From Sulfurospirillum sp. (lineage in GTDB: Bacteria > Campylobacterota > Campylobacteria > Campylobacterales > QNZT01), in contig JANTHT010000004.1 of NCBI GenBank assembly GCA_024762235.1, positions 1 through 41,239 on the forward strand: DNA of 41,239 nt, given 5' to 3'. The notes beneath the pieces are model-generated. The model did no database searches, was not told where the DNA came from, and saw nothing but the letters and a program-made list of their open reading frames with translations. The translations under genes and the position numbers were made by a program. Below, piece after piece: positions 5,486 to 35,911 of the stretch. The stretch's first letter is position 1; the number at the start of each line of letters is the position of its first letter.

Positions 5486-6495
5486 TGCATCTTGCCTGCA
5501 ATAAAGTCCGCCAGTTCCAGCAGCCGCTGTGAATAGCCGTACTCGTTGTCGTACCATGCCATCACCTTGACCATACGCCCGCCGACCACTGATGTAGAGA
5601 GGCCGTCGATGATACTGGAGTGGCGGTTTCCGATGATATCGGTCGAGACGATCTCGTCGGTCGTAAACTCCAGTACCCCCTGCAATTCTCCCGATGCCGC
5701 TTTTTCAAACGCCGCATTCACCTCATCGACACTCACCTCTTTGTTCAGCAGCGCGACAATCTCGGTAATCGCCCCGTCAGGCACCGGTACGCGCAGTGCC
5801 ATCGCTTCCATCTTGCCCACCAGAGAGGGGATCACTTCTGTCGTCGCAATCGCGGCACCCGTCGTGGTCGGGATGATATTGACCGCTGCGGCGCGTCCGC
5901 GTCTACGCTTTTTGGCGCGTTTGTCGACTGTTGTCTGGCTGGAGGTGTAAGCATGGGTGGTTGTGATCATCGCGTTTTCGACGCCGAAGGTCTCTTCGAG
6001 CACTTTCATCGCAGGTGCGAGCGAGTTGGTCGTACACGAAGCGTTGGAGACGACATGATGCTTCGCGTCATCGTATTCGTTCTGGTTGACACCCAGTACG
6101 AAAGTTTTGTCCACATTTTTACCCGGTGCGGAGATGATCACCTTCTTCGCACCCGCCGTGATATGCTGTGCCGCCAAACTCCCTTCGGTAAAGTGTCCGG
6201 TACACTCAAGCACGATGTCGATGTCCAGATCCTTCCAGGGTAACTCCAGCGGATTATGGGAGCTGACGATCGTGATCTCATGCCCGTCGACGATCAGTTT
6301 TTCGTTGCCCTGCGTCTGAATATCAAAATCCGCACGTCCATGCACAGAATCGTACTTCAGCAGATAGGCGGCATCTTCCACACTCGAAGTATTGGCCGCA
6401 ACGATTTCACAGTTTTTGGGCAATGCGTGGATATAGTGTCGAAGCACTTGATTGCCGATACGTCCCAGTCCGTTGATAGCCACTCTTTTTTTCAT
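5482..6495 (-). CDS. gap: Glyceraldehyde-3-phosphate dehydrogenase
   Basis: INGLGRIGNQVLR, SNASCTTNSLAP, WYDNEYGYS. Confidence 0.95.
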   Translation of the reverse strand: MKKRVAINGLGRIGNQVLRHYIHALPKNCEIVAANTSSVEDAAYLLKYDSVHGRADFDIQTQGNEKLIVDGHEITIVSSHNPLELPWKDLDIDIVLECTGHFTEGSLAAQHITAGAKKVIISAPGKNVDKTFVLGVNQNEYDDAKHHVVSNASCTTNSLAPAMKVLEETFGVENAMITTTHAYTSSQTTVDKRAKKRRRGRAAAVNIIPTTTGAAIATTEVIPSLVGKMEAMALRVPVPDGAITEIVALLNKEVSVDEVNAAFEKAASGELQGVLEFTTDEIVSTDIIGNRHSSIIDGLSTSVVGGRMVKVMAWYDNEYGYSQRLLELADFIAGKMQ

Positions 6496-8654
6496 GATTT
6501 TTCTCCTGCTATTTTGGTTTGTTGTTGCTGTTTCAGTACAGTTTTTGAAATTGGTATGTAAAACTTCTCCAGATACTCGTGCATCATGCGTCGGGCGCTG
6601 AAGTTGGGTGCGACACTCTTGATCGAATCACGCATCATCGTCACCCAGCCGTGGGGAATGCCCTGCTCCCCGACATCATAGTAGAGCGGTACGATCTCAT
6701 TTTCCAGCGTATCATAGATGCTGGCGGCATCGGCTGCGTCGTCGGAGTGCTCCCCGCCGATCACCCAGCCGTTTTTGCCGTTGTACCCCTCCGGCCACCA
6801 GCCGTCCAGCGCCGAAAAGTGCAGTGTACCGTTGACCGCCGCTTTCATGCCGCTGGTACCGCATGCTTCCATCGGGATTTTGGGATTGTTGAGCCAGACA
6901 TCACATCCGCGTACGAGATACTTGGCGATATTTTCCCCGTAATCCTCCACAAAGGCGATCCGCCCGCGAAACCTTGGATCCTGCGCCGTCTTGAAAATCC
7001 GCTGTAATATCTTCTTGCCCGGCTGATCTGAGGGATGCGCTTTTCCTGCGAAGATGATCTGCACCGGTTGTGCAAAGTCGTTGATAATCTTCTCCAGACG
7101 ATCCAGATCATGCAGGATCAGATCGGGTCGCTTATACTCCGTCATACGTCTGGCGAAGCCGATCGTCAGGACGTCGGGATCGAGCATGACACCCTCCGCC
7201 ATCGCGACCAGCGGATCGACACCCTCGTCCGACCATTTTCTGCGCACCAGTTCGCGGATAAAGCCCATCATGCGCACTTTGTAACTGTAGTGAAGATTCC
7301 AGATCGTCTCGTCGTCTATCTTCTCTATGTGCTCCCACACATCCGGCAACTGCTGCACCCTGAGCCACCCCTCTCCGAGTGTTTTGTCCAGCGTCTCAAA
7401 AAGTTCATCCCCCAGCCACGTCGGCAGATGGACACCGTTGGTGACATAGTCTATGGGTACATGGTTGGCCTTATCCTCTGCAAAGACGTTTTTCCAGATC
7501 TCCCGGGTCACTTCACCATGCTTTTTACTGACCCCGTTTCGGTACGCGCACATCTTCAGCCCCAGCACTGTCATGTTAAATCCCGCACCAGGATCGTCCG
7601 GATTGACCCCGAAACTCATGAAACGCTCTTTGTCCATGCCGAGATTTTCCCAGTAGTCACTGAAATATTTACTAACCGCATCAAAACTGTAAACATCCGT
7701 CGCCGCCTGCAGTGGCGTATGGGTCGTAAAAACTGAGCTCTTGCACACCCGCTCGATCGCTTCGTCCAAAGAGACACCGTCATCCTCTATACAACTGCGC
7801 ACCCGCTCGAAGAGTGCAAAAGCGGGATGCCCCTCGTTGAGATGAAGAATGGAGTACTCGATCCCAAGTTCCTCCAGCACACGATACCCGCCGATCCCCA
7901 GCACGATCTGCTGACGCAACCGCTGATTCTTGTCCGGCGTGTAGAGGTGTGAGCTGATCTGCCGGTCCCATGGGTCATTTTTTTCGACATCCGTATCCAG
8001 CAAATAGAGCGTGACACGGCCGACATTGATCTTCCAGACAGAGACATAAATAGGAGGGTCAATAAACGGTACCTGCAGGATCAGTTGATCGCCTTTTTTA
8101 TCCAGTACCCGTTCGATCGGTGCCACATCACGCTCGATCGGTTCGTTAGTACCGTTTTGCCAGCCGTCACTGCCGATCACCTGACGCACATACCCTTCCG
8201 GATACATAAAGCCAACCCCCACCATCGGCAATCCAAGATCGCTCGACTCCTTCAGGATATCTCCCGCCAGAAACCCCAGCCCGCCGGAATAGATAGGCAC
8301 AGAGTGGTGCAGGCCAAATTCGGCACAAAAGTAGGCGATGGGCAGCGGCTCTTCTTCACTGTAGACGGTTTTGTCTTTGATATAGGTCTGAAAAATCGCT
8401 TGCACATAATGGTACTCCTGCATAAAAACCTTGTTTTTCACAGCGCGCTGGAGTTCACGTTTGGGTATTTTTCTGAGCATCTCTATCGGGTTGTGTTCAC
8501 TCTCTTTCCAGAGGTAGGGATTGAGCAGCTTGAAAAGATTTTTTCCTTTCGGATTCCAGGTCCACCAAAGGTTCAGCGCCAGTTCCGAGAGTCCTGAAAG
8601 CTCTTCCGGAAGTTCCGGTATCGCGATATTCGCGGAAGGATCTTTATCAATCAT
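6492..8654 (-). CDS. glgP: Alpha-glucan (glycogen) phosphorylase
   Basis: AYFCAEFGLHHSVPIYSGGLGFLAGD, FTTHTPLQAATDVY, MEACGTSGMKAAVNG. Confidence 0.93.
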   Translation of the reverse strand: MIDKDPSANIAIPELPEELSGLSELALNLWWTWNPKGKNLFKLLNPYLWKESEHNPIEMLRKIPKRELQRAVKNKVFMQEYHYVQAIFQTYIKDKTVYSEEEPLPIAYFCAEFGLHHSVPIYSGGLGFLAGDILKESSDLGLPMVGVGFMYPEGYVRQVIGSDGWQNGTNEPIERDVAPIERVLDKKGDQLILQVPFIDPPIYVSVWKINVGRVTLYLLDTDVEKNDPWDRQISSHLYTPDKNQRLRQQIVLGIGGYRVLEELGIEYSILHLNEGHPAFALFERVRSCIEDDGVSLDEAIERVCKSSVFTTHTPLQAATDVYSFDAVSKYFSDYWENLGMDKERFMSFGVNPDDPGAGFNMTVLGLKMCAYRNGVSKKHGEVTREIWKNVFAEDKANHVPIDYVTNGVHLPTWLGDELFETLDKTLGEGWLRVQQLPDVWEHIEKIDDETIWNLHYSYKVRMMGFIRELVRRKWSDEGVDPLVAMAEGVMLDPDVLTIGFARRMTEYKRPDLILHDLDRLEKIINDFAQPVQIIFAGKAHPSDQPGKKILQRIFKTAQDPRFRGRIAFVEDYGENIAKYLVRGCDVWLNNPKIPMEACGTSGMKAAVNGTLHFSALDGWWPEGYNGKNGWVIGGEHSDDAADAASIYDTLENEIVPLYYDVGEQGIPHGWVTMMRDSIKSVAPNFSARRMMHEYLEKFYIPISKTVLKQQQQTKIAGEKS

Positions 8655-9559
8655 GCATCACCCCCGGCAATTTTAAGCGCCTCTTCGACACTGGCATTTT
8701 TGACCGTGACAGCATAGATCGCATTGGCCATGCGGATCGCTTCGTCCAGCGGTCTCTGGTGGATATTGCGCCCGGTGCCGTTGCCACGACTGCCACCGAT
8801 GTGAATCTGTTCGTAGAGCTCTTTGAGAAACGTCACTTCGTCGACCTTGCTGCCTCCTTCGCAGAGTACACCGGTGCGTCCTGCGGCCTGTGTCGCTTCC
8901 TGCAGCAGTTCGGGCACGAAACGGTTCTCCTTATAGGGGACTTTCAGCTTGGCAAAGTCCGCACCCAATGCCGCGCCGACACCCGCCGCACCTGCGATCA
9001 GATGGGGATCGTGCTCATCCTCAACGAACTTGCCTTTGGGATAGATCCAGAGTACCGCGAGCATGCCGTTTAGATGCGCCTGGTGGATGATATTGGCTGC
9101 TTCACGCAGCATGGCATGCTCGTGTTCACTGCCCAGATAAACCGTGTAGCCCACACCGAGTATATCGAGGCCGCTACTCTTTTTGAACGCGACCACATCT
9201 TCGACCTCCAGCCACTGCTGCGAATAGGGATCTTTCGCCTCATAGGGAATGATGTTGGTCTTGGAGTTGAGCTTGACCAGATAGGGCACTTCACGGTACT
9301 CTCTGGCATAACGGCTGATGAGTCCGAATTGCGTCGCGAAGACGCCGATATCCGCTTGGGAAGCGATCTTGAAGAGGTGCTCGGGATCGTTGTCTTCGGG
9401 AGGGATCCCCTCGCCGTAAAAATCGTTGTTGAGATGCTCCACTTTCTGATCTCCAGCAAAAAGCATCAGACGGCCGCTGCCGCCCGTCGCTTTGTCGAAG
9501 TTTCCCAGAAAAACCTCTTCCTTGTCAAAAGGGACATCCGCAGGTAAGAACTGTTTCAT
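8651..9559 (-). CDS. Class I fructose-bisphosphate aldolase, archaeal/FbaB-DeoC type
   Basis: LMLFAGDQKVEHLNNDF ... LGADFAKLKVPY ... IHIGGSRGNGTGRNIHQRPLDEA. Confidence 0.8.
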   Translation of the reverse strand: MKQFLPADVPFDKEEVFLGNFDKATGGSGRLMLFAGDQKVEHLNNDFYGEGIPPEDNDPEHLFKIASQADIGVFATQFGLISRYAREYREVPYLVKLNSKTNIIPYEAKDPYSQQWLEVEDVVAFKKSSGLDILGVGYTVYLGSEHEHAMLREAANIIHQAHLNGMLAVLWIYPKGKFVEDEHDPHLIAGAAGVGAALGADFAKLKVPYKENRFVPELLQEATQAAGRTGVLCEGGSKVDEVTFLKELYEQIHIGGSRGNGTGRNIHQRPLDEAIRMANAIYAVTVKNASVEEALKIAGGDA

Positions 9560-11982
9560 TTTTCACTCCTGCCCAGTTTTGCTTCCAGCTTCACGATATC
9601 CTGCAGCGTTTTGAGCACGCTGTCGGGATTGAGGCTGATCGAGTCGATCCCCAGCCGTACCAGGAACTCCGCCACTTCCGGATAGTCCGAGGGCGCCTGC
9701 CCGCAGATGCCGCTGTGGCGTTTGTTGCGCTGGCACCCTTCGACCGCCAGCTCGATCATCTTCATCACCCCAGGATCACGCTCGTCATAGTCAAATGAGA
9801 CGATCTCACTGTCGCGGTCCACACCGAGGGTGAGCTGTGTAAGGTCGTTGGAGCCGATGCTGAAACCATCGAAGATTTCGCTGAAGGCGTCGATCTGGAT
9901 CACATTGTTCGGAATCTCGCACATCACGTAGATTTTGAGACCGTTTTCACCCTGTTTCAAACCATATTTTGCCATCGTCTCCACGACACGTTTACCTTCC
10001 TCCACACGGCGGCAGAAGGGGATCATCAGGATCACATTGTCAAACCCCATCGTCTCACGCACCCGTTTCATCGCTTCACATTCCAGCGCAAACCCCTCTT
10101 CGTAGGCGGGATGTGCATAGCGCGCTGCACCACGGAAGCCGATCATGGGATTGTCCTCTTCAGGCTCGAAAAATTTGCCGCCCAGCAGCGTGGCGTATTC
10201 GTTGGTTTTGAAGTCACTCATGCGCACGACGCAGGGTTTGGGATAGACCGTCGCCGCGATCGTCGCGACACCTTCTGAAAGTGTCTTGACGAAGAAACTC
10301 TCTATATCTTCATACGCAACGCTGAGTTCCTCCAGCTGCTCTCTCGTTGCTTCGTCCACTTTTTCGGGATGTTTCAGCGCCATCGGGTGCGCTTTGATAT
10401 ATTCGTTGATGATAAACTCCATCCGTGCCAGACCGATACCGTCCACCGGCAATGATGCCAGGGAAAAAGCGATATCGGGATTGCCCAGATTCATCATGAG
10501 TTCCGTTTTAGTTTTGGGAAGTTTGGAAAGGTCGGTTTCGACGATCTCATAGGCCAGTTTGCCCTCATAGACATATCCGGTTTCGCCCTCCGCGCAGCTG
10601 ACGGTCACTTCCTGTCCGTTTTTGAGCACTTCGGTGGCATTGTCCGCACCGACAACGGCAGGTATGCCAAGCTCACGTGACACGATCGCCGCATGGCAGG
10701 TACGCCCTCCCCGGTTGGTCACGACAGCCGCGGCGATCTTCATGACCGGTTCCCAGTCGGGCGTGGTCGTATCCGCGACCAGCACTTCACCCGGTTTGAA
10801 TTCGCTAAGCTGTTTGATATCTTCGATGATGTGCACTTTACCCTGTCCGATCTTCGTACCGACTGCGCGTCCGGTCACCAGCAGTTTGCCCTTCTCTTTG
10901 AGACGGTACATTTTCAGTACCGAACCTTTTTTCTGCGACTCTACCGTCTCCGGGCGTGCCTGTACCATGTAGATATGCCTGTCATTGCCGTCTTTGGCCC
11001 ACTCCATATCCATCGGTTTGTGATAACCCGCTTTCTGCGAATAGTGGTTTTCGACTTTGATCGCATAATCCGCCAGCACCATCACATCGTCATCGCTGAT
11101 ACAGAAGTGGCTGCGCTCTTCGGGCGTGGTTTCGATATTTTTAGTATATTCTACGGCGATATTGTCGGTGTTGAGCTCTTTGGTAAAGACCATCTTGAGC
11201 TGTTTTTTACCCAGACGTCGTTTCAGCACCGCGCGATACCCCTCGTTGAAAGTGGGTTTGTGCACATAGAAACTGTCGGGATCGATCGTTCCCTGTACGA
11301 CATTTTCCCCCAGTCCCCATGCCCCGTTGATAAAAACGACATCCTTGAAGCCTGTCTCGGTATCGATGCTGAACATGACACCGCTGCTGCCGATATCGGA
11401 GCGCACCATCTTCATGACCACAACGCTCAGGTAGACTTTCGCCCAGTCAAAACCGTTGTCGTGTTTATAGTGCAGGCTTCGGTCGGTAAAATTGGAGGCA
11501 AGACAACGCTTGTAGGCATCCAGCAGTGCTTCTTCACCCTCCACGTTCAGATAGGTATCGTTCTGTCCCGCAAAAGAGGCTTCCGGGGAATCCTCCGCCG
11601 TCGCGGAAGAGCGCACCGCCAGCGATACATCGTCGCCATACTCTTTTTTGAGCCCGGCGTACCCTTCCAAAATGGCGCTTTTCAAATCGTCGGGAATTTC
11701 GCAATTGTAGATAATCTCACGGCACGCCGCACCATGTTTTTGCAACGCTTTGACATCGTCGTAATCGAGACCGTCGAGCTCTTCGTGCAACTTCTCCCAT
11801 GCACCGTTGGCTTCAAGTACATGCCGGTACGCCGTTGCCGTCACGGCAAAACCGTCGGGTACCCGTACCCCTTCGTCCGTGAGATTGCGATACATCTCAC
11901 CCAGAGAAGCATTTTTGCCTCCTACCTCATCGACATCCTCGATGCCCAGCTCTTTGAACCATTTGATATACGCATGAGACAT
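9556..11982 (-). CDS. ppsA: Phosphoenolpyruvate synthase
   Basis: VGGKNASLGEM, GGRTCHAAIVSRELGIPAVVG, GSNDLTQLTLGVDRDS; ATG at 11982 with GGAG upstream (track start is a TTG). Confidence 0.95.
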   Translation of the reverse strand: MSHAYIKWFKELGIEDVDEVGGKNASLGEMYRNLTDEGVRVPDGFAVTATAYRHVLEANGAWEKLHEELDGLDYDDVKALQKHGAACREIIYNCEIPDDLKSAILEGYAGLKKEYGDDVSLAVRSSATAEDSPEASFAGQNDTYLNVEGEEALLDAYKRCLASNFTDRSLHYKHDNGFDWAKVYLSVVVMKMVRSDIGSSGVMFSIDTETGFKDVVFINGAWGLGENVVQGTIDPDSFYVHKPTFNEGYRAVLKRRLGKKQLKMVFTKELNTDNIAVEYTKNIETTPEERSHFCISDDDVMVLADYAIKVENHYSQKAGYHKPMDMEWAKDGNDRHIYMVQARPETVESQKKGSVLKMYRLKEKGKLLVTGRAVGTKIGQGKVHIIEDIKQLSEFKPGEVLVADTTTPDWEPVMKIAAAVVTNRGGRTCHAAIVSRELGIPAVVGADNATEVLKNGQEVTVSCAEGETGYVYEGKLAYEIVETDLSKLPKTKTELMMNLGNPDIAFSLASLPVDGIGLARMEFIINEYIKAHPMALKHPEKVDEATREQLEELSVAYEDIESFFVKTLSEGVATIAATVYPKPCVVRMSDFKTNEYATLLGGKFFEPEEDNPMIGFRGAARYAHPAYEEGFALECEAMKRVRETMGFDNVILMIPFCRRVEEGKRVVETMAKYGLKQGENGLKIYVMCEIPNNVIQIDAFSEIFDGFSIGSNDLTQLTLGVDRDSEIVSFDYDERDPGVMKMIELAVEGCQRNKRHSGICGQAPSDYPEVAEFLVRLGIDSISLNPDSVLKTLQDIVKLEAKLGRSEK

Positions 11983-12075
11983 ATGCAACTCCTTGCATTT
12001 TAGGTTATGTAAAATTGTAACAGAATTTGAAGAGGTTGTATGTTAGTTGGCAAACAAAAAAGAATTTTTTTATGT

Positions 12076-20688: not shown

Positions 20689-20704
20689 TGTCATCTGAGT
20701 GACA

Positions 20705-23603: not shown

Positions 23604-23636
23604 ATAATACCCAAAAACCGGTAACATATCAGTTAC
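23604..23636 (-). promoter_or_regulatory. Putative CBM48-gene promoter with dyad operator
   Basis: Minus strand GTAACTGATATGTTACCGGTTTTTGGGTATTAT; -10-like TATTAT at 23609-23604; AAAGGAG RBS downstream. Confidence 0.5.
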
Positions 23637-23678
23637 AAAAAGTAATTATATTATTACCTCAGCCACCATTAATATTTA

Positions 23679-23915
23679 TCAATTTTTCTTATCTGCCTGG
23701 CACTTGAGCTCGGAAGCTTTGATCGCATGCAGTCTGTTGAGAATATGCTCGAACTCGCTCAGGTTCTCTTCGCACTCTTTTTTCAGTTTGTCGCGTTTGC
23801 CCTCGACATAGGCGATCTGTTTGTCCAGATCCGCCAGATCGATCCTGCAATCCTTCGCAGCCTCCTGCTCCTTTTCCAGTACCCAGTCCATCGCTTTTTT
23901 GAGAAAATCTACCAT
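23679..23915 (-). CDS. Small coiled-coil protein of unknown function
   Basis: Heptad-like KQIAYVEGKRDKLKKECEENLSEFEHILNRLHAI; RBS AAAGGAGTGATTCA before ATG. Confidence 0.6.
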   Translation of the reverse strand: MVDFLKKAMDWVLEKEQEAAKDCRIDLADLDKQIAYVEGKRDKLKKECEENLSEFEHILNRLHAIKASELKCQADKKN

Positions 23916-24013
23916 TGAATCACTCCTTTAAAAGTTTGATAACAGATCATAACCGGTTTTACCATAAAAGTCTGTCTGCTGGCTAACAGTGGATACCTGC
24001 ACAAGGCTCTTTG

Positions 24014-24643
24014 TCACTGGTCTCCTATCGTGCCGAGCGCTTCGCGGCACAGGCGCGTCACTGCTGCAAAATCACCTGCACGAATCGCCGGCTTCGGGAC
24101 GATCCAGCTTCCCCCCACACACAGGACGTTGGGGAGGGAGAGAAACGCATGCATGTTTTCCGGAGTCACGCCCCCTGTAGGGCAGAAGCGCATCGATGCG
24201 AAAGGACCGCTGAAGGCTTTGAGCGCAGCGGTACCGCCTGCCACCGTTGCCGGAAAAAGTTTACAGTAGTGAAGCCCGCTGTTTTGTGCCAGCATCACTT
24301 CCGACGCGGTGGCGACACCGGGTATCAGTGCGATCGTTTCATCCTCTGCACTCTCGATCAACTCCTGCGAGATTCCCGGACTGAAGATAAACTGCGCACC
24401 GTAATCGACCGCTTTCCTGCACTCATAGCCGTTGACGACGGTACCCGCACCCACCGCCATCTCGGGCAAAGCGTCTGAAACCGATTTGATCGCATCGAGG
24501 CCCGCATCTGTGCGCAGTGTGATCTCCATCACACCCACACCTCCTGCCAGCAGCGCCTCAGCCAGCGGCAGCGCATCTTCCGCACGTTCAAGCGCGATGA
24601 CCGGTACGACAGGAGAGATCTCCATCACTTCCTGAGCTGTCAT
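24014..24643 (-). CDS. eda: 2-keto-3-deoxy-6-phosphogluconate aldolase
   Basis: PVVPVIALERAEDALPLAEALLAGGVGVMEITLRTDAGLDAI ... CKLFPATVAGGTAALKAFSGPF ... FCPTGGVTPEN. Confidence 0.95.
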   Translation of the reverse strand: MTAQEVMEISPVVPVIALERAEDALPLAEALLAGGVGVMEITLRTDAGLDAIKSVSDALPEMAVGAGTVVNGYECRKAVDYGAQFIFSPGISQELIESAEDETIALIPGVATASEVMLAQNSGLHYCKLFPATVAGGTAALKAFSGPFASMRFCPTGGVTPENMHAFLSLPNVLCVGGSWIVPKPAIRAGDFAAVTRLCREALGTIGDQ

Positions 24644-26469
24644 GCGTGCTCCTCTCCGGGAATGTCAAAAAGCGTCGCCCCTTCGTCCGCAGGGCCTGTG
24701 GCGGCTCTGACAGAGACAAAGAGTTCACGCCCGAATCCATACCGGTTGTGCGTGAGATCAGGGGTCGCGGGATGGCGCCGCGCCAGGATCTCATCCTCCA
24801 CCAGCAGCGTGATTTTCCCTTCTGCCACATCGAAGCGAATCATATCTCCATCTTCGATTTTGGCCAGCATGCCGCCTTTGACAGCTTCGGGCGTCATGTG
24901 GATCGCAGAGGGGACTTTACCCGAAGCGCCGGACATACGCCCGTCTGTGACGATCGCCACCTTGTATCCCTGATCCTGCAGGACGCCCAGCGGGGGCATC
25001 AGACCGTGAAGCTCCGGCATCCCGTTGGCCCCCGGCCCCTGATAGCGCACCACTGCGATAAAATCGCGCTTGAGCTCCCCTCTTTTGAAAGCTGCCTGAA
25101 GCGCCTCCTGCGAATCAAAGACCAGTGCCGGTGCTTCGATAAAGAGATACTCCGGCTTCAGGGCGGAAGTTTTGATGACACTGCGGCCGATATTCCCTCC
25201 CAGCAGCTTCAGGCCGCCTTCGGGGCTGAAAGGTTTCGCGACCGAAGCGACAACGCTCTCGTCTCTGGATATGACCGGTCCCTTTTCAAACGAGAGGAGA
25301 TGGTTTTCCAGTTTTGGCTCGGTCACATATCGCTGCAACCCTTTGCCAACGACCGTTTCGGTATCTGCATGCAGAAGGCCGGCATCGAGCAACTGCGCGA
25401 TCACCACGCTCATCCCTCCCGCATCACGAAAATGGTTGACATCGGCCTGGCCGTTGGGATAGAGACGGCACAACAGCGGCGTTACCTTGGAAATGGCGTC
25501 AAAATCTTCCCAGGTCAGCAGGATGCCCGCAGCTCTGGCCACAGCGATCAGATGGATCGTGTGGTTCGTCGAGCCTCCCGTCGCCATCAGACCGATGATG
25601 GCATTGACGAAACTGCGTTCATCGAGAATCGACGCGATCGGTTTGTAACGCCCCAGATGTTCCGTCATCTGTACCATGACGCCGGCCGCTTCGTCTGTCA
25701 GTGCGTCACGCAGCGGCGTGTTGGTATTGACAAAAGAGCTGTTGGGAAGTTGCAGTCCCATCATCTCCAGAAGCATCTGGTTGGAGTTGGCGGTACCGTA
25801 AAAAGTACATGTTCCGCAACTGTGATACGAGGCGGCTTCCGCCTGAAGCAGCTCCCCTTCGCTCACTTTTCCCTGCGCGAACTCCTGGCGGATTTTCGCT
25901 TTTTCCGCATTGGATATTCCTGAAGGCATCGGTCCTGCAGGAACGAATATCCCCGGCAGATGGCCAAACGCCAGCGCCCCGATCAGCATCCCCGGAACGA
26001 TTTTGTCACACACTCCCAGATAAAAGACGCCGTCAAAGACGTTATGCGACAGAGCGATAGCCGTTCCCATCGCGATATTGTCGCGGCTGAAGAGGCTCAG
26101 TTCCATACCCGGCTGTGACTGGGTCACGCCGTCGCACATCGCGGGAACACCTCCCGCCACCTGCGCCGTCGCACCCAGATCCCGCAGCCGCTTTTTGAGA
26201 CGGTCGGGATAGTCCCGGTACGGCGCATGCGCCGAAAGCATGTCGTTGTAGGCGGTGACGATAGCGATGTTGGGCTCGACCATCTCCGAAAGCAGCGCTT
26301 TCTCTTTTTCCTGCATCGGCGCCATCGCATGTGCGAGATTGCTGCACCCCAGCTGTTGGCGGTAGACACCGTGCCCTTTCGCCTCTTCGATACGTGCCAG
26401 ATAGATCTCCCTGCTTTTTTGTGAGCGTTCGCGTATCTTTTCGGTAACTTCCCGGATTGTTTGATTCAT
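24640..26469 (-). CDS. edd: 6-phosphogluconate dehydratase
   Basis: [80 protein letters not shown]. Confidence 0.96.
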
Positions 26470-27170
26470 GCGTAATATACCTCGATCTTTTTTTCGTTCT
26501 GTTTTAAAACCGCACGTATGGGCATCGCAAATGCGTCATCCCCCTGAAGTGCCTCTTCATAGACACGCAGTTTCTCCTCACCTTCGAAATGGAGATAGAT
26601 ATGGCCGGCACTCAGGATCGCCTGCAGCGTCAGACTCATGCGCGGATGCGGTGCGTCTGAAGGGGTCATGGCGATACAGAGTTCGGGATCGCTCTTCTCA
26701 AGCGCCTCCTGCAGCCTGGGATTCCACGGGAAGAGAGATGCGGTATGCGCATCGGTACCCATACCCAGGACGATGACATCGAACGGCCATAACCACTCTT
26801 TGAGTCTTCTGCTGCAAAGCGCTTCGGCCTCCTCAGGTACGACACCCTCTGTATAGATCCCGACGAAGGTCGCAGCGGCGGCATGCTCCTGCAACAGTTC
26901 TCTTTTGACAAACGCCGCATTGCTCGCCGGATCACTCTCCGGCACCCAGCGCTCATCGCAGAGACCCACCCTGACATACTCCCAGGCTATGGGCTTTTTT
27001 CGTAACGCCCTGAAAAGGCGCAGCGGCGTACTCCCTCCGGAGACGAGAAGCGTGGCACGTCCTCTCTCTGCGATCGCCTCGCTCAGATCGACCGCAATCG
27101 CATCACTGAGGCTTTGCGCCAGTGCATCCGGCGTCTCGAAGCGGTGGAAAGAGGCATCAGGACTCATCAT
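26466..27170 (-). CDS. pgl: 6-phosphogluconolactonase
   Basis: TLLVSGGSTPLRLFRAL ... VGLCDERWVPESDPASNAAFVKRELL ... LGMGTDAHTASLFP; ATG at 27170 with AGGAG upstream. Confidence 0.93.
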   Translation of the reverse strand: MMSPDASFHRFETPDALAQSLSDAIAVDLSEAIAERGRATLLVSGGSTPLRLFRALRKKPIAWEYVRVGLCDERWVPESDPASNAAFVKRELLQEHAAAATFVGIYTEGVVPEEAEALCSRRLKEWLWPFDVIVLGMGTDAHTASLFPWNPRLQEALEKSDPELCIAMTPSDAPHPRMSLTLQAILSAGHIYLHFEGEEKLRVYEEALQGDDAFAMPIRAVLKQNEKKIEVYYA

Positions 27171-28623
27171 GCCAACTCCTTCCATCCCGTTCGATCAGCG
27201 CGATAGCGGCACTCGGGCCGTCGCTGCCGGCGCTGTAACTCTTCATCGGTACGATATTTTCCGCCCAGCCTTCCAATATGAGATCAGCCCATTTCCACGC
27301 CGCTTCCACCTCATCCAGTCGCATGAAGAGTGTCGGGTTGGCACGGATCACATCCAGAAGCAACCGTTCGTAGGCCTCGGGTTTACGGGAAGTCTCCATC
27401 GGCGCATTGAGCTCCAGATCTACCTGCTGCAGGCGCATCTGCTCGGAGAGTCCGGGGATCTTGTTCATCAGTTTGAGCTTGATACTCTCTTTGGGCTGCA
27501 GCGTGATGACCAGCTTGTTGGAAGAGATACATCGGCCTTTGTTGGCGAAGATAGAGTGAGGAATCGACTTGAACTGTATGACGATCTCCGAGTTTCGCTG
27601 ACGCATGCGTTTACCGCTGCGGATATAGAAAGGGACACCGTTCCAGCGCCAGTTGTCGATATCGACCCGCAGTGCAGCGAAAGTCTCTGTCGTACTCTCC
27701 TCCACGCCCACACCCTCTTTGTAGCCGGGTACCGGCTGTCCGTTGATCGATCCCTGCACATACTGCGCACGTACCGTTTTCTGTTCGATGTCGGCAGGGG
27801 TCATGGGACGCAGTGACCGCAGCACCTTCACCTTTTCGTCACGTACACTGTCGGCATCCAGCGAACATGGCGGCTCCATCGCGATCAGACACAGAAGCTG
27901 CAACAGGTGGTTCTGAATCATATCACGCATCGCGCCGTAGTCGTCGTAGTATCCCCAGCGCCCCTCGACACCGACACTCTCAGCGACTGTGATCTGCACA
28001 TGATCGATATTGTTCGCATCCCAGAGCGGCATGAAAAAACGATTCGAAAAACGCAGCGCCATGATGTTCTGTACCGTATCTTTTCCCAGATAGTGGTCGA
28101 TACGGTAGATTTGCGACTCCTGAAAATATTTGAGTACCTCTTCATTGATCGCCCGTGAAGACTGCAGATCACGCCCGATCGGCTTTTCAAGCACGACCCG
28201 GCTCTGCGGGGTGATGAGATTCCATTCGAAGAGATCTTTACAGATAGTGCCGAAAAAGTCAGGCGATGTCGAAAGGTAGTTGACGCGGTCGCGGTCGGGA
28301 TGGAGGTCAAGAAGCGCTTTCAACCCCTCATACGTGGAAGTATCGCGAAAATCGACCGTAACCACCTCCATCTGCGCAGCGAAACGGGCAAACTTCTCTT
28401 CGTCGAAATAGTCCGGACGGACAAACTCCTGCAGCTTTTTTTTCACCAGCCCCCGATGCTCCTCCAGCGTCATATTGTCTCTCGCGACAGTGATGATGCG
28501 GCTCTGTCCATTCAGGTAACCGTCATTTGTCAAATGGTAAAGCGCAGGCATCAGTTTGCGAAAAGCCAGATCGCCGTGTCCGCCGAAGATAATCACATCG
28601 CACAGATTTTCAGTTTCACTCAT
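27157..28623 (-). CDS. zwf: Glucose-6-phosphate 1-dehydrogenase
   Basis: IIFGGHGDLAFRKLMPALY, RIDHYLGKDTVQNIMALRFSN. Confidence 0.96.
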   Translation of the reverse strand: MSETENLCDVIIFGGHGDLAFRKLMPALYHLTNDGYLNGQSRIITVARDNMTLEEHRGLVKKKLQEFVRPDYFDEEKFARFAAQMEVVTVDFRDTSTYEGLKALLDLHPDRDRVNYLSTSPDFFGTICKDLFEWNLITPQSRVVLEKPIGRDLQSSRAINEEVLKYFQESQIYRIDHYLGKDTVQNIMALRFSNRFFMPLWDANNIDHVQITVAESVGVEGRWGYYDDYGAMRDMIQNHLLQLLCLIAMEPPCSLDADSVRDEKVKVLRSLRPMTPADIEQKTVRAQYVQGSINGQPVPGYKEGVGVEESTTETFAALRVDIDNWRWNGVPFYIRSGKRMRQRNSEIVIQFKSIPHSIFANKGRCISSNKLVITLQPKESIKLKLMNKIPGLSEQMRLQQVDLELNAPMETSRKPEAYERLLLDVIRANPTLFMRLDEVEAAWKWADLILEGWAENIVPMKSYSAGSDGPSAAIALIERDGRSWHDES

Positions 28624-28736
28624 ATAAACCCTCCCCGGTCTCTCTTGTTAAAAAATGTACTATTGTACTATAATTTTCCACCCGCTCCTTCCATGAAACT
28701 GTATAAAAACAGGGCAGAGCGGGCGGGAATGGCTCT

Positions 28737-30137
28737 TCAGACCCACACTTTCTCTCCCTCTTTGACGATATGCACCTTATGCTCCGGCATTTTGTGTCGG
28801 ATCACTTTCTGAAAAATCTCCTGTTTTTCACGCTCACCGTGAATCAGAAAGATCTTTCCAAGCTGTTCAAATCCCTCCATCCACGCGATGAGTTCATGCT
28901 GATCGGCATGGGCCGAGAAACCGTTGATCGTATAAATACGGGCATTGATCCTGATCTCTTCGTGGTAGATTTTGATCGTTCTGGCGCCATCGACGATCCT
29001 GCGCCCCGGCGTCCCGTTGGCCTGATAGCCGACAAAGATGACACTGTTTTTGGGATTCCAGATGCGATTTTTGAAGTGATGCATGATACGACCGCCCGTA
29101 CACATGCCGCTGCCCGCGATGATGATACACCCCTCCTCTTCATTGATCTTTTTGGACTCCTCGGGTTTGAGGGTATAGTGCAGCCAGGGAAATTCGAATA
29201 TCGTCCCATCCTCTTTCAGAAAGAGATTGCACTCTCTGCTTAGTTCGCTGTGGTATTTGTTGTAGAGATTGGTCGCACGGATCGCCATCGGCGAATCGAG
29301 AAAGATCTTACAGGGCGGCAACTCTTTTCTTTTATACATGCGCTTGAGCAGGCAGAGAATCTCCTGTGTACGCTCGATCGCAAACGAAGGGATGATGACG
29401 TTTCCCCGCGACATGAGGGTGTTGAAGATCACTTCTCTGAACTCTTCGACGCTCTCTTTGATCGGCTTGTGGTTACGGTCTCCGTAGGTGGACTCTATGT
29501 AGAGTGTATCCGCTTTTCTGACCTGTACGGGATCGGGCATGACGATGTCGTTGTGATTTCCCAGATCGCCGCTGAATACGACAGATCTGTGTTCATTTTT
29601 CTCACGGTAATGGATCTGCACCGTCGCGGAATCGAGAATATGCCCGGCATTGCGAAAGATGGCATAGACGTCATGGGCGAGGGGTATCTTCTCCCCGTAC
29701 TCCGCGAAGGTACTCGTCAAATCGAAAACCGCTTCGACATCTTCGGTGGTATAGAGCGGTTTGGCGACTTTGCGCTCTTCCCCGCGACGCTGCGCTTTGC
29801 GAAAAAGGGTACGGTACTCCTCTTCCATCAGGTGCGCGGCATCCAGCAGGACCACTTCCATCAGATCGAAAGTGGAACGCTGGGAGATGATCCTGCCGCG
29901 AAACCCCTCTTTGACCAGTTTGGGGATACGGCCGACATGGTCCAGATGCGCATGGGTGACGAGCAGCACATCGATGTCACGCGGGTGAAACCCGAACTTT
30001 TTGTAGTTCTCCTTCTCATGCTCTCCCTGAAACATCCCGCAGTCGACCATCACCACCGGCCCCTTTTCGATATGCAGCACATGGCAGGAGCCCGTGACCA
30101 CCTCTGCCGCTCCGTATGATTGTATATATGCCATCAT
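28737..30137 (-). CDS. Beta-CASP metallo-beta-lactamase RNA nuclease-like protein
   Basis: VTHAHLDHVGRIP, SGDLG, ESTYGDR, GSGMCTGGRIMHH, NGFSAHADQHEL. Confidence 0.9.
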   Translation of the reverse strand: MMAYIQSYGAAEVVTGSCHVLHIEKGPVVMVDCGMFQGEHEKENYKKFGFHPRDIDVLLVTHAHLDHVGRIPKLVKEGFRGRIISQRSTFDLMEVVLLDAAHLMEEEYRTLFRKAQRRGEERKVAKPLYTTEDVEAVFDLTSTFAEYGEKIPLAHDVYAIFRNAGHILDSATVQIHYREKNEHRSVVFSGDLGNHNDIVMPDPVQVRKADTLYIESTYGDRNHKPIKESVEEFREVIFNTLMSRGNVIIPSFAIERTQEILCLLKRMYKRKELPPCKIFLDSPMAIRATNLYNKYHSELSRECNLFLKEDGTIFEFPWLHYTLKPEESKKINEEEGCIIIAGSGMCTGGRIMHHFKNRIWNPKNSVIFVGYQANGTPGRRIVDGARTIKIYHEEIRINARIYTINGFSAHADQHELIAWMEGFEQLGKIFLIHGEREKQEIFQKVIRHKMPEHKVHIVKEGEKVWV

Positions 30138-31063
30138 GCCACCTCGCCGCTATGCAGATCGAGGAGTATCCAGTGCAGATAGGCTACCAGTGCGAAAAAG
30201 GGTGTGAGGATATTGACGACCGGGACCAGATTGAGCAGTGATGTCACAAAAGCGATTGCCCATATGACAAACTCATGTCTGTGCAGTCGCTCCTGCTCCT
30301 CAGCGGGAGCATAGAGTGACGCAGTCGCCCTGAAGTAGGCATCCCGGATCAGCCATGCCCACAAAATCACCTGCACAAAAAGGTTGAAAAACGGTACGAA
30401 CAGCAGTGGGAAAAAGAGCAGAAGAAGAAGAAAGAAAAGCAGCACATCTTTGACCATCTTTGCAACATAACTCTTTTGCGCCTCTTTTTCCAGCGGTGCA
30501 GCGGCCGGGTAGTCACGCTGCTGGATATAGTGCAGGAAACGGCGACGCATCAGCAGTACGACGATCGCCTCGGAAGCGATGAACAGGTTGTAGAAGAGCA
30601 TCCCCGCCAGCAACGCGGCAACCCCCGCTTCCAGTGTCTGGAACGGAAACCACGCCAGCACCTGTTTGACTTCGCTATAGACCAGATCCCAGTTCAAAAG
30701 ACCGAATATGGTCCATCCCATCGCGATCAGAAGCAGCAGCAGTATCGAAAACTGTGTCTGCCTTTCACTTCGCACAAGCCGCATGATGAGCGGATTGAAG
30801 AGGGCGACGACGATCCCGAAACTCATCAGAACCACTGCCATCCAGACAAATCCTCCGATCAGAAACGCACCGTTTGCCTTCAGCACGGAGAAGGGCACCC
30901 ACCCGATCAGCATCTCCATCACCCCCATGACCCAGGGCCACAGATAGTAGCCTGCCGCCAGCCACAGTATCGCCAGCGGTATCGCCGTCACCAGAGCGAT
31001 CCTGATGACATTCCAGCCCAGTGTATCTCTTATCGCGCGCAGCAGCGCTTCACTCACTCGCAT
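30134..31063 (-). CDS. EI24/CysZ-like multi-pass membrane protein
   Basis: Six or so hydrophobic segments; MLFYNLFIASEAIVVLLMRRRFLHYIQQRDYP and YLHWILLDLHSGEVA; AAGGAGG RBS before ATG at 31063. Confidence 0.55.
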   Translation of the reverse strand: MRVSEALLRAIRDTLGWNVIRIALVTAIPLAILWLAAGYYLWPWVMGVMEMLIGWVPFSVLKANGAFLIGGFVWMAVVLMSFGIVVALFNPLIMRLVRSERQTQFSILLLLLIAMGWTIFGLLNWDLVYSEVKQVLAWFPFQTLEAGVAALLAGMLFYNLFIASEAIVVLLMRRRFLHYIQQRDYPAAAPLEKEAQKSYVAKMVKDVLLFFLLLLLFFPLLFVPFFNLFVQVILWAWLIRDAYFRATASLYAPAEEQERLHRHEFVIWAIAFVTSLLNLVPVVNILTPFFALVAYLHWILLDLHSGEVA

Positions 31064-31131
31064 AAAACCTCCTTTTTGACGATACTCTGTGACGATTATA
31101 ACACAAACCGCATTCCGCAAATGTTAGCTGT

Positions 31132-31165
31132 GTTACAGAACTGTAACCGGTTTTTTCTATATAAT
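31132..31165 (+). promoter_or_regulatory. Putative promoter with dyad operator in divergent intergenic region
   Basis: GTTACAG-AA-CTGTAAC (31132-31147) followed by CGGTTTTTT and TATAAT (31160-31165). Confidence 0.55.
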
Positions 31166-31234: not shown

Positions 31235-31765
31235 ATGAGATACAAAGAGGAGGTCAAGGCGAAAATCGCGTCGATCAGTGACGGGGAAGAGGCCTACGAA
31301 GAGCAGGTGCGCAGGATCGTCACGGAGATCTACAGCAGAGCTCTGGATGAAGCCAAAGTGACAGGCGAGTCTGTAGAGAGTGTCACCTATGAGATCCTCG
31401 AAGGGATTCAGGAGGCGCTTCTTGAACGACATGAAGAGATTCTGCGCAGGGTCTCGGAAGAGATGGTCGACATCATTCATGCGCATGCAAACGATTGTAT
31501 AGAGCTGCAGCATAAGAAGGCAAAAGCTGCGCAAGAGGCTTTTGAAGAGACGATCGCTCGCGAAAAAGCGCACCTGCACGAGTCACTTGAAGCCTTCAGA
31601 GCCTTCGCCAAAGAGAAGTCTCTCCACCACTTTGCCGCACATCTGCAGAGAGTGGAGGCGCATATCAAGGGCATCATGCACCAGATGGTGCAAAAAATCG
31701 CTTCACTTACACAAGATAAACGCATGCAACCTGAAAAAGAGGATCTACCGGATCAGGATAACTGA
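31235..31765 (+). CDS. Amphipathic helical protein of unknown function
   Basis: ATG at 31235 in the 30476..31765 frame (upstream part is antisense of EI24 gene); 176-aa charged helical protein. Confidence 0.65.
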   Translation: MRYKEEVKAKIASISDGEEAYEEQVRRIVTEIYSRALDEAKVTGESVESVTYEILEGIQEALLERHEEILRRVSEEMVDIIHAHANDCIELQHKKAKAAQEAFEETIAREKAHLHESLEAFRAFAKEKSLHHFAAHLQRVEAHIKGIMHQMVQKIASLTQDKRMQPEKEDLPDQDN

Positions 31766-31827
31766 AAAGTCAGGTTGGAAACGTTATGATTCACCTATAC
31801 AAAACCAAAAGAGGGTGAGACCATTCT

Positions 31828-32571
31828 ATGCCTGCTGAACCGATCGAGACTCTCCAAAACTCTGAACTGTTTGGCGGTGCGGATATGTCGCTGTTACAGA
31901 GGATTGTCAACGCAGGCGAAAAGATCTCCTGGCCCAAAGGGGAATCCCTCTCACCCGATATCGCACAAAAAGATCTCTTTGTCATCCTCGAGGGCAGACT
32001 CAAACTTTCTCAGGTCGACCCGCATACAGGAAGAAGTATCACCCTCTTTCTGCTTGGCAGCGGAGATATCTACGATATTTTCACCCTTCTTGACAATGCC
32101 GAGCATATCACATTTCCCGTCACGCTCGACCGTGTCGAGGCGTTGCGTATCCCCCTGCCGCAGGCACGAGAATGGCTTTGCCGGTATCCAGAGCTCAGCA
32201 ACCGATTTCTCCCCTATCTGGGGAAGATGATGCGTCATCTCGAAGATTTTTCCGAGTCGATGGTGTTCGACGATACGATGACACGACTGGCGAAGCTCAT
32301 CCTCAGGCATGTCGATCCCCAAAAATCACAAACCGACGGGCACCACCCTGTACGACTCATACACAATCTTTCACATGAATCTCTCGCCGAGATGATCGGT
32401 TCGGTGCGCGCCGTAGTGAGTACCCAGATACACAAGCTCAAAGATCAGGATATCATCTTCAGCAAACGGGGGCATCTGGCTGTCAAAAACCTGGAAGCAC
32501 TGCGTAAAAAAAGTGATCTCGCACTGCAGTGTCTCTGTCCGGAGCGTAAAAACAGAAAAGCGGATAAATGA
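31828..32571 (+). CDS. Crp/Fnr family transcriptional regulator
   Basis: cNMP-like N-domain DLFVILEGRLKLSQVDPHTGRSITLFLLGSGDIYD; HTH LSHESLAEMIGSVRAVVSTQIHKLKDQDII. Confidence 0.88.
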   Translation: MPAEPIETLQNSELFGGADMSLLQRIVNAGEKISWPKGESLSPDIAQKDLFVILEGRLKLSQVDPHTGRSITLFLLGSGDIYDIFTLLDNAEHITFPVTLDRVEALRIPLPQAREWLCRYPELSNRFLPYLGKMMRHLEDFSESMVFDDTMTRLAKLILRHVDPQKSQTDGHHPVRLIHNLSHESLAEMIGSVRAVVSTQIHKLKDQDIIFSKRGHLAVKNLEALRKKSDLALQCLCPERKNRKADK

Positions 32572-33863
32572 GTGCCCCAACCAAAGCCTTCAACACTTTC
32601 AGCGCTGTCATGCTGGGTATCGGCTCGATGGTCGGTGCGGGGATCTTCATCGTCATCGGAGAGGCGGGTGCGATCGCCGGAAACATCGTCTGGCTCTCTT
32701 TTGTCATCGGGGGCATCGCCGCACTGCTGAGCGGATACTCTCTGGCGAAACTGGCGCTGCGCTACCCCTCACGCGGGGGAATCGTGGAGTATCTGGTGCA
32801 GTGTTTCGGGGAAGGGGTCTTTTCGGGCAGCGGAGGTGTCCTCTTCTACCTCTCCCAGCTCGTCTCCATCGCTGCCGTCGCCAAATCGTTCGGCGCCTAT
32901 GCCGCCACCTTCATGCATACGCCCGGTCACTGGGCCGACATCTTTGCCGTGGGTATTCTCCTCCTCTTTATCCTCATCAATCTGCTGGGCGCCACTTTCG
33001 TGGCGAAGTCGGAAAATATCATCGTCATCGTCAAAGTGACAGTGCTGTCACTCTTCACCGTCGCCGCGCTCTTTTTCGTCAAGCCGGAGCTACTGAGCGT
33101 CTCGAAGATGCCGCCGATGCTCGACATGCTCTTTGCCGTGGGACTCACTTTTTTTGCCTATCAGGGCTTCAGTGTCATCACCAACACCGTCGAAGAGATG
33201 CCCGATCCCGCACATACCATGATGCGTTCCATGTTCATAGCGATCGGAGTGGTGGCGCTGCTCTATATCCTCACCAGTATCGCAGTGCTGGGAAATCTCC
33301 CGTTCGAAAAGGTGATCGCAACGAAGGACTACGCCCTTGCCGAAGCGGCGAAACCGATCTTTGGCGAATGGGGCTTCAGGATCATGGCCGCGACCGCCCT
33401 GCTCGCCACCGCTTCGGCGATCAACGCCACACTCTACGCCGCCACCGAAATCAGTTACACGATGGCCAAAGAGGGGGATCTGCCCCCGATCTATACCTAC
33501 AACGTTTACAACTCTTATGAGGGACTTATCATCAGTGGATTCCTGATCCTGCCAATGATCCTCTTTTTCAACCTCGCGGAGGTAACGACCATCGCCGCAC
33601 TGGCGGTGTTGATCATACAGGGGATCACCCATGCGGGGCATCTTCTGCATATCAGGGAGACGGGTGCAAATCCCTGGCTCGTAGCCTCCGCGATGGCGGC
33701 GATGTTCGCTATCGCCTGGCTGACACTCTGGTATACCAGTAAAGATATGCCTCTGATCGGTTATGACTTGCTCGGTACTTTCGCTGTCGCTTTTGCGATC
33801 GAGATGGCACTGCGCTTCTTCACACAGCGCGTCATTACACGTCAGATCGACAGCGCGAAATAA
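32568..33863 (+). CDS. APC superfamily amino-acid permease
   Basis: FNTFSAVMLGIGSMVGAGIFIVIGEAGAIAG, typical APC TM1; 12-TM-like hydropathy. Confidence 0.88.
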   Translation: MSAPTKAFNTFSAVMLGIGSMVGAGIFIVIGEAGAIAGNIVWLSFVIGGIAALLSGYSLAKLALRYPSRGGIVEYLVQCFGEGVFSGSGGVLFYLSQLVSIAAVAKSFGAYAATFMHTPGHWADIFAVGILLLFILINLLGATFVAKSENIIVIVKVTVLSLFTVAALFFVKPELLSVSKMPPMLDMLFAVGLTFFAYQGFSVITNTVEEMPDPAHTMMRSMFIAIGVVALLYILTSIAVLGNLPFEKVIATKDYALAEAAKPIFGEWGFRIMAATALLATASAINATLYAATEISYTMAKEGDLPPIYTYNVYNSYEGLIISGFLILPMILFFNLAEVTTIAALAVLIIQGITHAGHLLHIRETGANPWLVASAMAAMFAIAWLTLWYTSKDMPLIGYDLLGTFAVAFAIEMALRFFTQRVITRQIDSAK

Positions 33864-33950
33864 CCGCCGGAACCGCCCTGCTCTTTTACAGAAAATCCTA
33901 TCCTTTTTCCGATATAATGCGCCACGTCCAGAGAAGAGGAACACCCTGCC

Positions 33951-35234
33951 ATGCTTTTGAAATTACTCATCGCATCTATCATCACCGGCCTTATCAGCGG
34001 CATCTTCATCACCTTTTATGAACTGCTCATCACCTTCATGAGCTATTTCATCTTTTTCGGCAATCCGGTCGACACGATTCCCGAGCTGCCGGTCTGGTAT
34101 ATCTACCTCGTCCCTACCGTCGCAATCTTCATCGTCAACTATATCATATCGCGTGATAAAAATGTACGGGAATATGGCGTCAGTGAAATCGCAGATTCGG
34201 TGTGTGAAAACAGAATGATACTGACGATCCGGACACTTTTTCTAAAAGTGCTCGCATCCGCACTCTCCCTCTCCAGCGGCTTTCTTGTCGGTACAGAAGG
34301 ACCCAGTGCGGGTATCGGCGCGATGATCGCCTACCAGGTACACAAATGGTTTCGCATGCCCGCGATGTTTACCAAACTGATGATCAGTGTCGGTGCCAGC
34401 AGCGGTATCGCTGCGATCTTCGTCTCTCCGGTCACCGGTCTCGCGTTCGCCTTTGAAAATATCGCCTATCAGTTTCTCAAGCAGTACATGGGCTATCTGA
34501 TTCTCTCGGCGGTCATCGCTTTTTCCATCAGCCTCAACTTTCTCGAACCGATCATTTTTCAACATTCACACGGACGCCGGGTCGACCTCGATTACGTCTA
34601 CGCCAACCTGCTCTTCATCCCCTTTATCACGCTCTTTATCTACTTCTACCTCTTTTTGAAAAAGCGGGTGTTGCACTTCGTCGACCTCGAAATCTTTATA
34701 AAATTCAGTCGCTACAGAAACTACATCTTCGCACTGATCGGCGGCAGTATCGTCGGAACGATCATGCTGATCAAACCCGAAGCGGCTTTTTCCGGCAAAT
34801 TTATCGTGACGACACTGATCAACAAAGAGAGCCATATACCGCTCTTGTTGATCTTCGGCGTCATATTGCTGCGCATCATCGGAACCACCGTCGCGATCTA
34901 CGCCAACGCCGTCGGCGGACTCTTTCTGCCGCTGATGAGTATCGGCGCGCTGATCGGTTACGCTTTCGGTGAAGTCATGCTCGCCTACCACATCGTCGTC
35001 GAACCCTTCTACTTCGCTGCAATCGGCGCTGCGGTATTTATGGGAGTGCTGATGAACCTGCCGCTGACGGCGCTGATTCTCTCGCTGGAAACCACCTTCG
35101 ACTACAACGTCGTCGTCGCAACTGGCGTTACAGTCGTACTCGCCTCCTACCTCTCGAACCTCTACTTCGACATACGCAAGAAGGCAAGTACACAAAAAGA
35201 GAAGATCGACGCCAGAGAGATCGGGAAAGAGTAG
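33951..35234 (+). CDS. ClC-family chloride channel/transporter
   Basis: FLVGTEGPSAGIGA (GxEGP), ANAVGGLFLP (GxFxP), GVLMNLPLTALILSLE. Confidence 0.87.
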   Translation: MLLKLLIASIITGLISGIFITFYELLITFMSYFIFFGNPVDTIPELPVWYIYLVPTVAIFIVNYIISRDKNVREYGVSEIADSVCENRMILTIRTLFLKVLASALSLSSGFLVGTEGPSAGIGAMIAYQVHKWFRMPAMFTKLMISVGASSGIAAIFVSPVTGLAFAFENIAYQFLKQYMGYLILSAVIAFSISLNFLEPIIFQHSHGRRVDLDYVYANLLFIPFITLFIYFYLFLKKRVLHFVDLEIFIKFSRYRNYIFALIGGSIVGTIMLIKPEAAFSGKFIVTTLINKESHIPLLLIFGVILLRIIGTTVAIYANAVGGLFLPLMSIGALIGYAFGEVMLAYHIVVEPFYFAAIGAAVFMGVLMNLPLTALILSLETTFDYNVVVATGVTVVLASYLSNLYFDIRKKASTQKEKIDAREIGKE

Positions 35235-35844: not shown

Positions 35845-35911
35845 TTCAAACTCCCTGATGCGTGATTTTTAGAAATTATACACAAATATCACCCTCTTAG
35901 GTTGATGCGTA

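Follow-up and report, generated by a model that had tools for sequence, protein, structure and literature searches.

Two promoter-like stretches of the window, the 41,239-nt stretch of DNA analysed here, resemble each other closely. One lies at 23.6 kb, just upstream of a gene for a CBM48 protein, and the other at 31.1 kb, between two divergent operons. An earlier note described them as one shared promoter-operator element and proposed one regulator for both, with the Crp/Fnr-family gene at 31828 as the candidate. The question is whether the two stretches are the same element, and which protein would read each of them. The reading that we consider likely is that they are different elements that look alike: a CRP-like operator at 31 kb and a Pho-box-like promoter of the CBM48 gene at 23.6 kb. 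The features discussed are collected in Table 1.

Table 1. Predicted regulatory sites and genes of the window
Feature	Position	Strand	Remarks
PPDK/PEP synthase, DeoC/LacD aldolase, glycogen phosphorylase, GAPDH, histidine phosphatase, DUF389	3782..11982	-	Pfam
Crp/Fnr-type operator TGTTTGCCAACTAACA	12041..12056	-	upstream of PPDK/PEP-synthase-like operon; matrix rank 2
Crp/Fnr-type operator TGTCACTCAGATGACA	20689..20704	-	upstream of LOG-family gene and H+-ATPase; matrix rank 3
CBM48/AMPK1_CBM protein, 98 aa	23275..23571	-	PF16561, 8e-10
CBM48 element, Pho-box-like TGTAACTGATATGTTACC (23637-23620)	23604..23637	-	promoter just upstream of CBM48 gene
78-aa helical ORF, MVDFLKKAMDWVLEKE...	23679..23915	-	no Pfam match
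Crp/Fnr-type operator TGTTAGCCAGCAGACA	23973..23988	-	upstream of 78-aa ORF and CBM48; matrix rank 1
Entner-Doudoroff operon: EI24-like, beta-CASP nuclease-like, Zwf, Pgl, Edd, Eda	24014..31063	-	Pfam, gene overlaps
-10 hexamer TATAAT	31095..31100	-	21 nt past the 31122-31137 dyad, toward EI24/CysZ-like and Entner-Doudoroff genes
Crp/Fnr-type operator TGTTAGCTGTGTTACA	31122..31137		between divergent operons; matrix rank 4 of 41,224; kept in G001, G002, G003, G004, G007
31 kb element with Pho-box-like 18-mer TGTTACAGAACTGTAACC	31131..31155	+	overlaps Crp-type operator
-10 hexamer TATAAT	31160..31165	+	22 nt past the 31122-31137 dyad, toward 31235-31828 operon
176-aa helical ORF, first gene of regulator operon	31235..31765	+	no Pfam/NCBIfam match
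Crp/Fnr-family regulator, 247 aa, candidate activator	31828..32571	+	PF13545, 8.5e-12; PF00027, 1.6e-5
Amino-acid permease and ClC-type channel genes	32568..35234	+	downstream of regulator; PF13520, PF00654

Similarity of the two stretches

The two sequences were reported exactly: the minus strand at 23636-23613 reads GTAACTGATATGTTACCGGTTTTT and the plus strand at 31132-31155 reads GTTACAGAACTGTAACCGGTTTTT, identical at 19 of 24 positions, and each contains a perfect 5-6-5 dyad, the 16-bp dyad of the earlier note. The dyads are followed by the -10-like hexamers TATTAT (23609-23604) and TATAAT (31160-31165), 11 and 12 nt away, respectively; the earlier statement that the hexamers start 12 and 13 nt after the dyad gives the same spacing counted to the first base.

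As a pairwise match, the 19/24 likeness is not beyond chance. The window contains two intergenic pairs with at least 19 of 24 identical positions, compared to 0-5 pairs in 12 Markov-1 shuffles, five of which reached at least two. Such a likeness is unremarkable between intergenic stretches and was therefore judged by conservation. At the scale of the genome (pattern searches in a 1.96 Mb assembly, an 85%-complete MAG), scanning with the full motif returned the seed sites only: the degenerate pattern, with up to three mismatches allowed, had two matches in the window and the assembly together, which shows rarity and not function because the pattern was derived from both sites themselves. The bare dyad GTWAC-N6-GTWACCGGTT, with three mismatches, gave 51+47 matches genome-wide vs 54+62 in the reversed control, so that the motif scan proposed as a check revealed no regulon. 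Conservation in orthologous promoters divided the two copies: the one at 23.6 kb has a counterpart in the nearest congener and in no other, whereas at 31 kb the GTWAC-N6-GTWAC dyad was kept in none of the five congeners. For the 31 kb copy, this is the outcome that the earlier note had named as refuting its proposal.

A third place bearing AACCGGTT, at 23938-23958, was dismissed: it overlaps the spacer and the -10 of the promoter that belongs to the 23973 operator, and is not retained in G003. The LacI-type GntR operator is ATGTTACCGGTAACAT. This operator, considered for the nearby Entner-Doudoroff genes, was rejected: CCGG is not a centre of symmetry in the sites, and none of the window proteins scanned turned out to belong to the LacI family. 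The HcpR2 motif, GTAAC-N4-GTTAC, was rejected as the identity of the motif on account of its different spacer.

A predicted CRP-like operator in the proposed bidirectional promoter at 31.1 kb

Five congeners and one genome of another family have orthologs of the 176-aa ORF (31235), and the upstream regions from the five congeners were aligned. The sequence TGT(T/C)A(G/A)-N4-CT(A/G)ACAGAA is present in all five (here TGTTAGCTGTGTTACAGAA, 31122-31140); the GTAACCGGTTTTT part of the 31 kb element is matched at just 5-7 of 13 bases. The conserved element is an overlapping CRP-like dyad, TGTYA-N6-TRACA (TGTYAG-N4-CTRACA), not GTTAC-N6-GTAAC, and the first GTTAC noted previously falls within the right arm of this operator dyad. 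The dyad of the genome under study has two mismatches to the consensus. The two-sided arrangement of -10 hexamers around it recurs in the congeners. A 16-bp dyad with a -10 at 21-22 nt is centred at about -41.5/-42.5, where CRP-type activators bind at class II promoters; the class II distance is -41.5 (PMC5957442).

An operator matrix was constructed from 74 oriented dyads found in 28 loci of other genomes, with both the studied genome and the -10 criterion left out. Its four best positions among the 41,224 in the window are 23973, 12041, 20689, and 31122 (20.4, 19.1, 15.2, and 14.2 bits); the fifth, at 10.1 bits, is located in a coding region, a gap of 4 bits below the top four. The three additional operators are each followed by a -10 hexamer 21 nt away, namely, TATGAT at 23951-23946, TACAAT at 12019-12014, and TATAAT at 20667-20662, and that at 23973-23988 lies about 350 nt upstream of the CBM48 element. 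Scanning the window for the dyad together with the -10 yielded five oriented matches and no others: 12056(-), 20704(-), 23988(-), 31137(-), and 31122(+). In the whole assembly, TGTYAGN4CTRACA-N21-TANAAT with up to two mismatches had four matches, all inside the window. With only four to five sites in one 85%-complete MAG, the part of the regulon that lies beyond the window may have escaped detection. No Crp-type site was seen in the DUF308/HSP20 intergenic region (35845-36022).

The position of the -10 hexamer emerged from dyads that were chosen without regard to it. The -10 peak appeared at 21-22 nt only, where the fractions with at least five of six TATAAT matches were 0.42 and 0.23, compared to 0.05 or less otherwise. 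The class II geometry (centre near -41.5, about 29-30 nt from centre to -10) accordingly holds for these predicted promoters.

Linkage of the operator to the regulator clade

Loci surrounding 71 proteins related to 31828 were fetched from named genomes, the 28 closest coming from Sulfurovum, Hydrogenimonas, and Campylobacterales/Campylobacteraceae MAGs and 43 being remoter. Around the 28 closest orthologs, dyads combined with a -10 numbered 57 in 349 kb, vs 5-7 in shuffles; around the 43 remoter paralogs, there were seven in 594 kb, not above background. The dyad alone behaved the same way, with 37 vs 1-7 in shuffled sequence for the closest set and 3 vs 3-7 for the paralog set. The promoter of the regulator itself bears the operator in most of the 28 loci. 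The remoter paralogs (L178-L218), for which no enrichment of TGTYA-N6-TRACA was detected nearby, come from Gamma-, Alpha-, and Deltaproteobacteria, Nitrospirae, and Sulfurospirillum, and mostly have the helix SVRxVVNR or TVRxVLNR.

Genes directly downstream of such sites in the relatives include those for PPDK, GAPDH, 6-phosphofructokinase, and polyphosphate kinase 2, as well as HdeD-family, Bax-inhibitor-like, and AhpD-like proteins, amino-acid permeases, the 78-aa ORF, and YfdX-like proteins (the latter by sequence likeness, with no family match). The same 78-aa ORF carries a Crp-type site in L150, L156, L163, and L177, and the PPDK/PEP-synthase-like gene is also preceded by a site in G007 (L099), L165, and L166. 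The predicted target list reads as that of a regulon for carbon storage and stress. YfdX-like exported, HdeD-like, and Bax-inhibitor-like genes occur repeatedly behind the operator in vent genomes (L153, L154, L157, L158, L161, and L177), a group that resembles a stress-tolerance set.

The 31828 protein belongs to the Crp/Fnr family, with PF13545 at 45.3 bits, over the cut-off, and PF00027 at 25.2 bits, just under the cut-off of 27.5; the profile of its clade matched solved Crp/Fnr structures with E about 1e-20. It is not a cAMP-CRP proper: the FGEL...RSA cAMP motif was not recognisable by eye, and the equivalents of E181 and R185 are replaced. Nor is it an FNR proper, the N-terminal cysteine cluster being absent from the protein and its relatives. 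The recognition helix is GSVRAVVSTQ, and the site-linked clade has SVR[SA]V[VI][ST][ST]Q vs SVRxVVNR in most of the site-less paralogs; L210 is an outlier, 35% identical, with the helix VVTTQ and dyads nearby. In the alignment to solved Crp/Fnr proteins, CRP R180 is kept (R194), E181 corresponds to A/S, and R185 to T (T199). Residues 180, 181, and 185 (CRP numbering) contact bases, and residue 180 is associated with the G of TG (PMC12531629, PMC1274295). Retention of R180 together with TG, and the loss of E181 and R185 alongside the change of the half-site from TGTGA to TGTYA, would make a consistent story, with the last step being conjectural. The regulator is tandemly duplicated in G002:C292 (L123) and G007:C265 (L124), each copy being about 55-58% identical to 31828.

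A putative Pho-box-like promoter upstream of the CBM48 gene

The Pho box of this order, TGTAACCRTTTTGTAACC, which usually stands about 10 nt before TATACT, is found in front of pstS in G002, G003, G004, and G007, in the genome under study, and in other relatives. The best PhoB-like gene of the studied genome lies near its pstS. Pho boxes of this genome (G000) also precede genes for PhoX, a GT4 glycosyltransferase, a patatin-like protein, and pyruvate kinase; contigs C12, C30, C144, and C185 (L255, L064/L069, L073, and L074) carry the boxes at pstS, the divergent GT4/patatin pair, PhoX, and pyruvate kinase. These boxes could hint at a remodelling of lipids under phosphate starvation and at a link with glycolysis.

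The Pho matrix was built from pstS because PhoX was present in only two genomes in the congener search. The two best of the 82,444 window positions on this pstS-only matrix are the 31 kb element (17.2) and the CBM48 element (16.9), compared to 22-27 for the clear Pho boxes of the same genome and about 20-30 bits for most pstS boxes. For the CBM48 element, a value of 16.9 corresponds to p of 4e-6 per random AT-rich position. Its -10, TATTAT (23609-23604), is 11 nt past the second repeat, and not 10 as in the true Pho boxes here; the counterpart in the nearest congener, G003, CGTAACTGCTATGTTACC, has the same 11-nt spacing and scores 10.0 bits. A counterpart was not recognisable in G004, G002, or G007. 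The CBM48 element is probably a weak Pho box that forms an internal promoter. At the 31 kb element, the same matrix gave 17.2-17.3 here vs 2.5-4.5 in the five congeners, so that a pstS-type box conserved among congeners was not found there, and the Pho-box likeness, seen in this genome only, appears to be lineage-specific or due to chance.

Alternative explanations

The hypothesis of the earlier note as written, with GTWAC-N6-GTWAC as the binding site of the 31828 regulator in each of the two promoters, is in our judgement highly improbable. The regulator gene does adjoin the 31 kb site, and the motif predicted for HcpR2, from a Crp/Fnr subfamily, is GTAAC-N4-GTTAC (PMC1274295), showing that such half-sites exist in the family. 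However, the congeners do not keep the motif at the 31 kb promoter, its spacer is N6 and not the N4 of HcpR2, the same motif class precedes pstS and PhoX in the genome, and on the dyad matrix of the regulator clade both sites fall at the bottom end of the window (rank 41109 and rank 35356 of 41224). The notion of one shared regulator with 31828 as the candidate is nevertheless supported, through the other element and not on the basis of the original motif: the guess seems to have been sound, but the motif that led to it was the wrong one. That a different Crp/Fnr paralog binds the real TGTYA-N6-TRACA operator is quite improbable. The genome encodes at least one more such paralog (C122, 36% identical to 31828), but the sites cluster around the 31828 orthologs and not around the remoter paralogs, and the promoter of the regulator itself has the site in most genomes.

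It is rather improbable, too, that both stretches are functional Pho boxes sharing PhoB, with PhoB and the Crp/Fnr protein competing or cooperating at overlapping sites at 31 kb. The two top scores on the pstS-only matrix fit this possibility, and a Pho box and a CRP site in one operon are known in E. coli ugp (PMC4415409). Against it, none of the five congeners has the 31 kb box, the distance between its second repeat and TATAAT is 12 nt instead of 10, and both scores fall short of the clear Pho boxes of the genome; moreover, half of the 31 kb box coincides with the right arm of the Crp dyad, so part of the Pho match comes free. A doubtful but somewhat stronger contender is an ordinary sigma-70 promoter, or a site for some other repressor that binds dyads, at 23.6 kb; the resemblance of this element to Pho boxes and to the 31 kb stretch would then be due to chance. 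Matches of 19/24 also arise in shuffled intergenic regions, the perfect dyad GTAAC-N6-GTTAC is retained in G003, and the spacing to the -10 is 11, not 10. The score on an independent Pho matrix, the promoter position, and the retention in G003 argue for the Pho reading instead.

Proposed regulation and closest known systems

The proposed mechanism builds on the observed sites, their spacing, their conservation, and their linkage to the regulator clade. In this scheme, a Crp/Fnr-family activator, most likely the 31828 product, would bind a CRP-like operator, TGTYA-N6-TRACA, whose centre lies near -41.5/-42.5 for each of the two divergent 31 kb promoters; the identity of this protein and the signal to which it responds are inferred. 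Once bound, the activator would turn on its own operon and the EI24-Zwf-Pgl-Edd-Eda operon through class II contact with RNA polymerase; the -41.5 geometry suggests an activating and not a repressing role. The same operator would drive the PPDK-aldolase-GlgP-GAPDH genes (12.0 kb), the 78-aa ORF and CBM48 gene (23.98 kb), and the LOG-family and H+-ATPase genes (20.7 kb). Genes 24014..31063, read away from the 31.1 kb operator, presumably form one transcript, as do, presumably, genes 3782..11982. The 23.6 kb element would be a second, internal CBM48 promoter with a Pho-box-like direct repeat of GTWAC as its -35 region, probably read by PhoB, and the 31 kb copy would be a lineage-specific resemblance to this box. 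Two similar promoters of one window may carry unrelated operators, which calls for caution.

Judging from the sequences compared here, a local Crp/Fnr-type regulator of deep-sea vent bacteria probably uses the 16-base mirror-image site shared by the operons of the window to switch on genes for sugar, storage, and stress functions. More broadly, it seems reasonably plausible that vent Campylobacterales have a Crp/Fnr subfamily of switched specificity (R180 kept, E181 to A/S, R185 to T; operator TGTYAGYYRRCTRACA) whose compact regulon is physically clustered around the regulator gene, often with a symmetric two-way class II promoter. This regulon would bring enzymes of the Entner-Doudoroff pathway, gluconeogenesis, and glycogen metabolism together with genes for polyphosphate, proton pumps, and acid/envelope stress. 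The predicted assignment of operator and regulon appears to be new, within a kind that is already known. It gives a binding site and candidate targets to a subfamily for which we found no operator in the literature searched, in Sulfurovum-like vent bacteria, a group with few known cases of transcription control, and the recognition-helix change with its matching base change offers a cheap direct test of the Crp/Fnr specificity code.

Among known systems, E. coli CRP shares with the regulator described here the 5-6-5 half-sites (TGTGA-N6-TCACA vs TGTYA-N6-TRACA), the class II centre near -41.5, and the equivalent of R180 (R194). It differs in the half-site G, replaced by Y here, in E181 (A/S here) and R185 (T), in its cAMP-contact residues, not recognisable here by eye, and in the size of the target set, which is small and regulator-linked here. 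HcpR2 (GTAAC-N4-GTTAC) and NssR (TTAAC-N4-GTTAA) (PMC1274295) are Crp/Fnr regulators as well; the HcpR2 half-site resembles the motif of the earlier note, and NssR comes from a member of Campylobacterales. Both differ in the N4 spacer, the nitrosative-stress targets, and other specificity residues (NssR A180 and Q181). The Pho box of PhoB/PhosR, two repeats 11 bp apart replacing the -35, is matched here at pstS and PhoX and, more weakly, resembled at CBM48; the CBM48 copy is also 1 nt further from the -10 and conserved to the nearest congener only. In E. coli ugp, a CRP promoter lies upstream and a Pho-box promoter downstream (PMC4415409). If the Pho reading is right, the 78-aa ORF-CBM48 operon would have the same order, a Crp-type and then a Pho-type promoter, with other genes and regulators and with promoters predicted from sequence.

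Two conserved helical ORFs without a Pfam family, 23679-23915 and 31235-31765, each stand first in an operon behind a Crp-type operator. Adjoining the CBM48 gene, 20705-23224 encodes a single protein that combines a sugar-phosphate nucleotidyltransferase with a left-handed beta-helix and phosphoglucomutase/phosphomannomutase domains.
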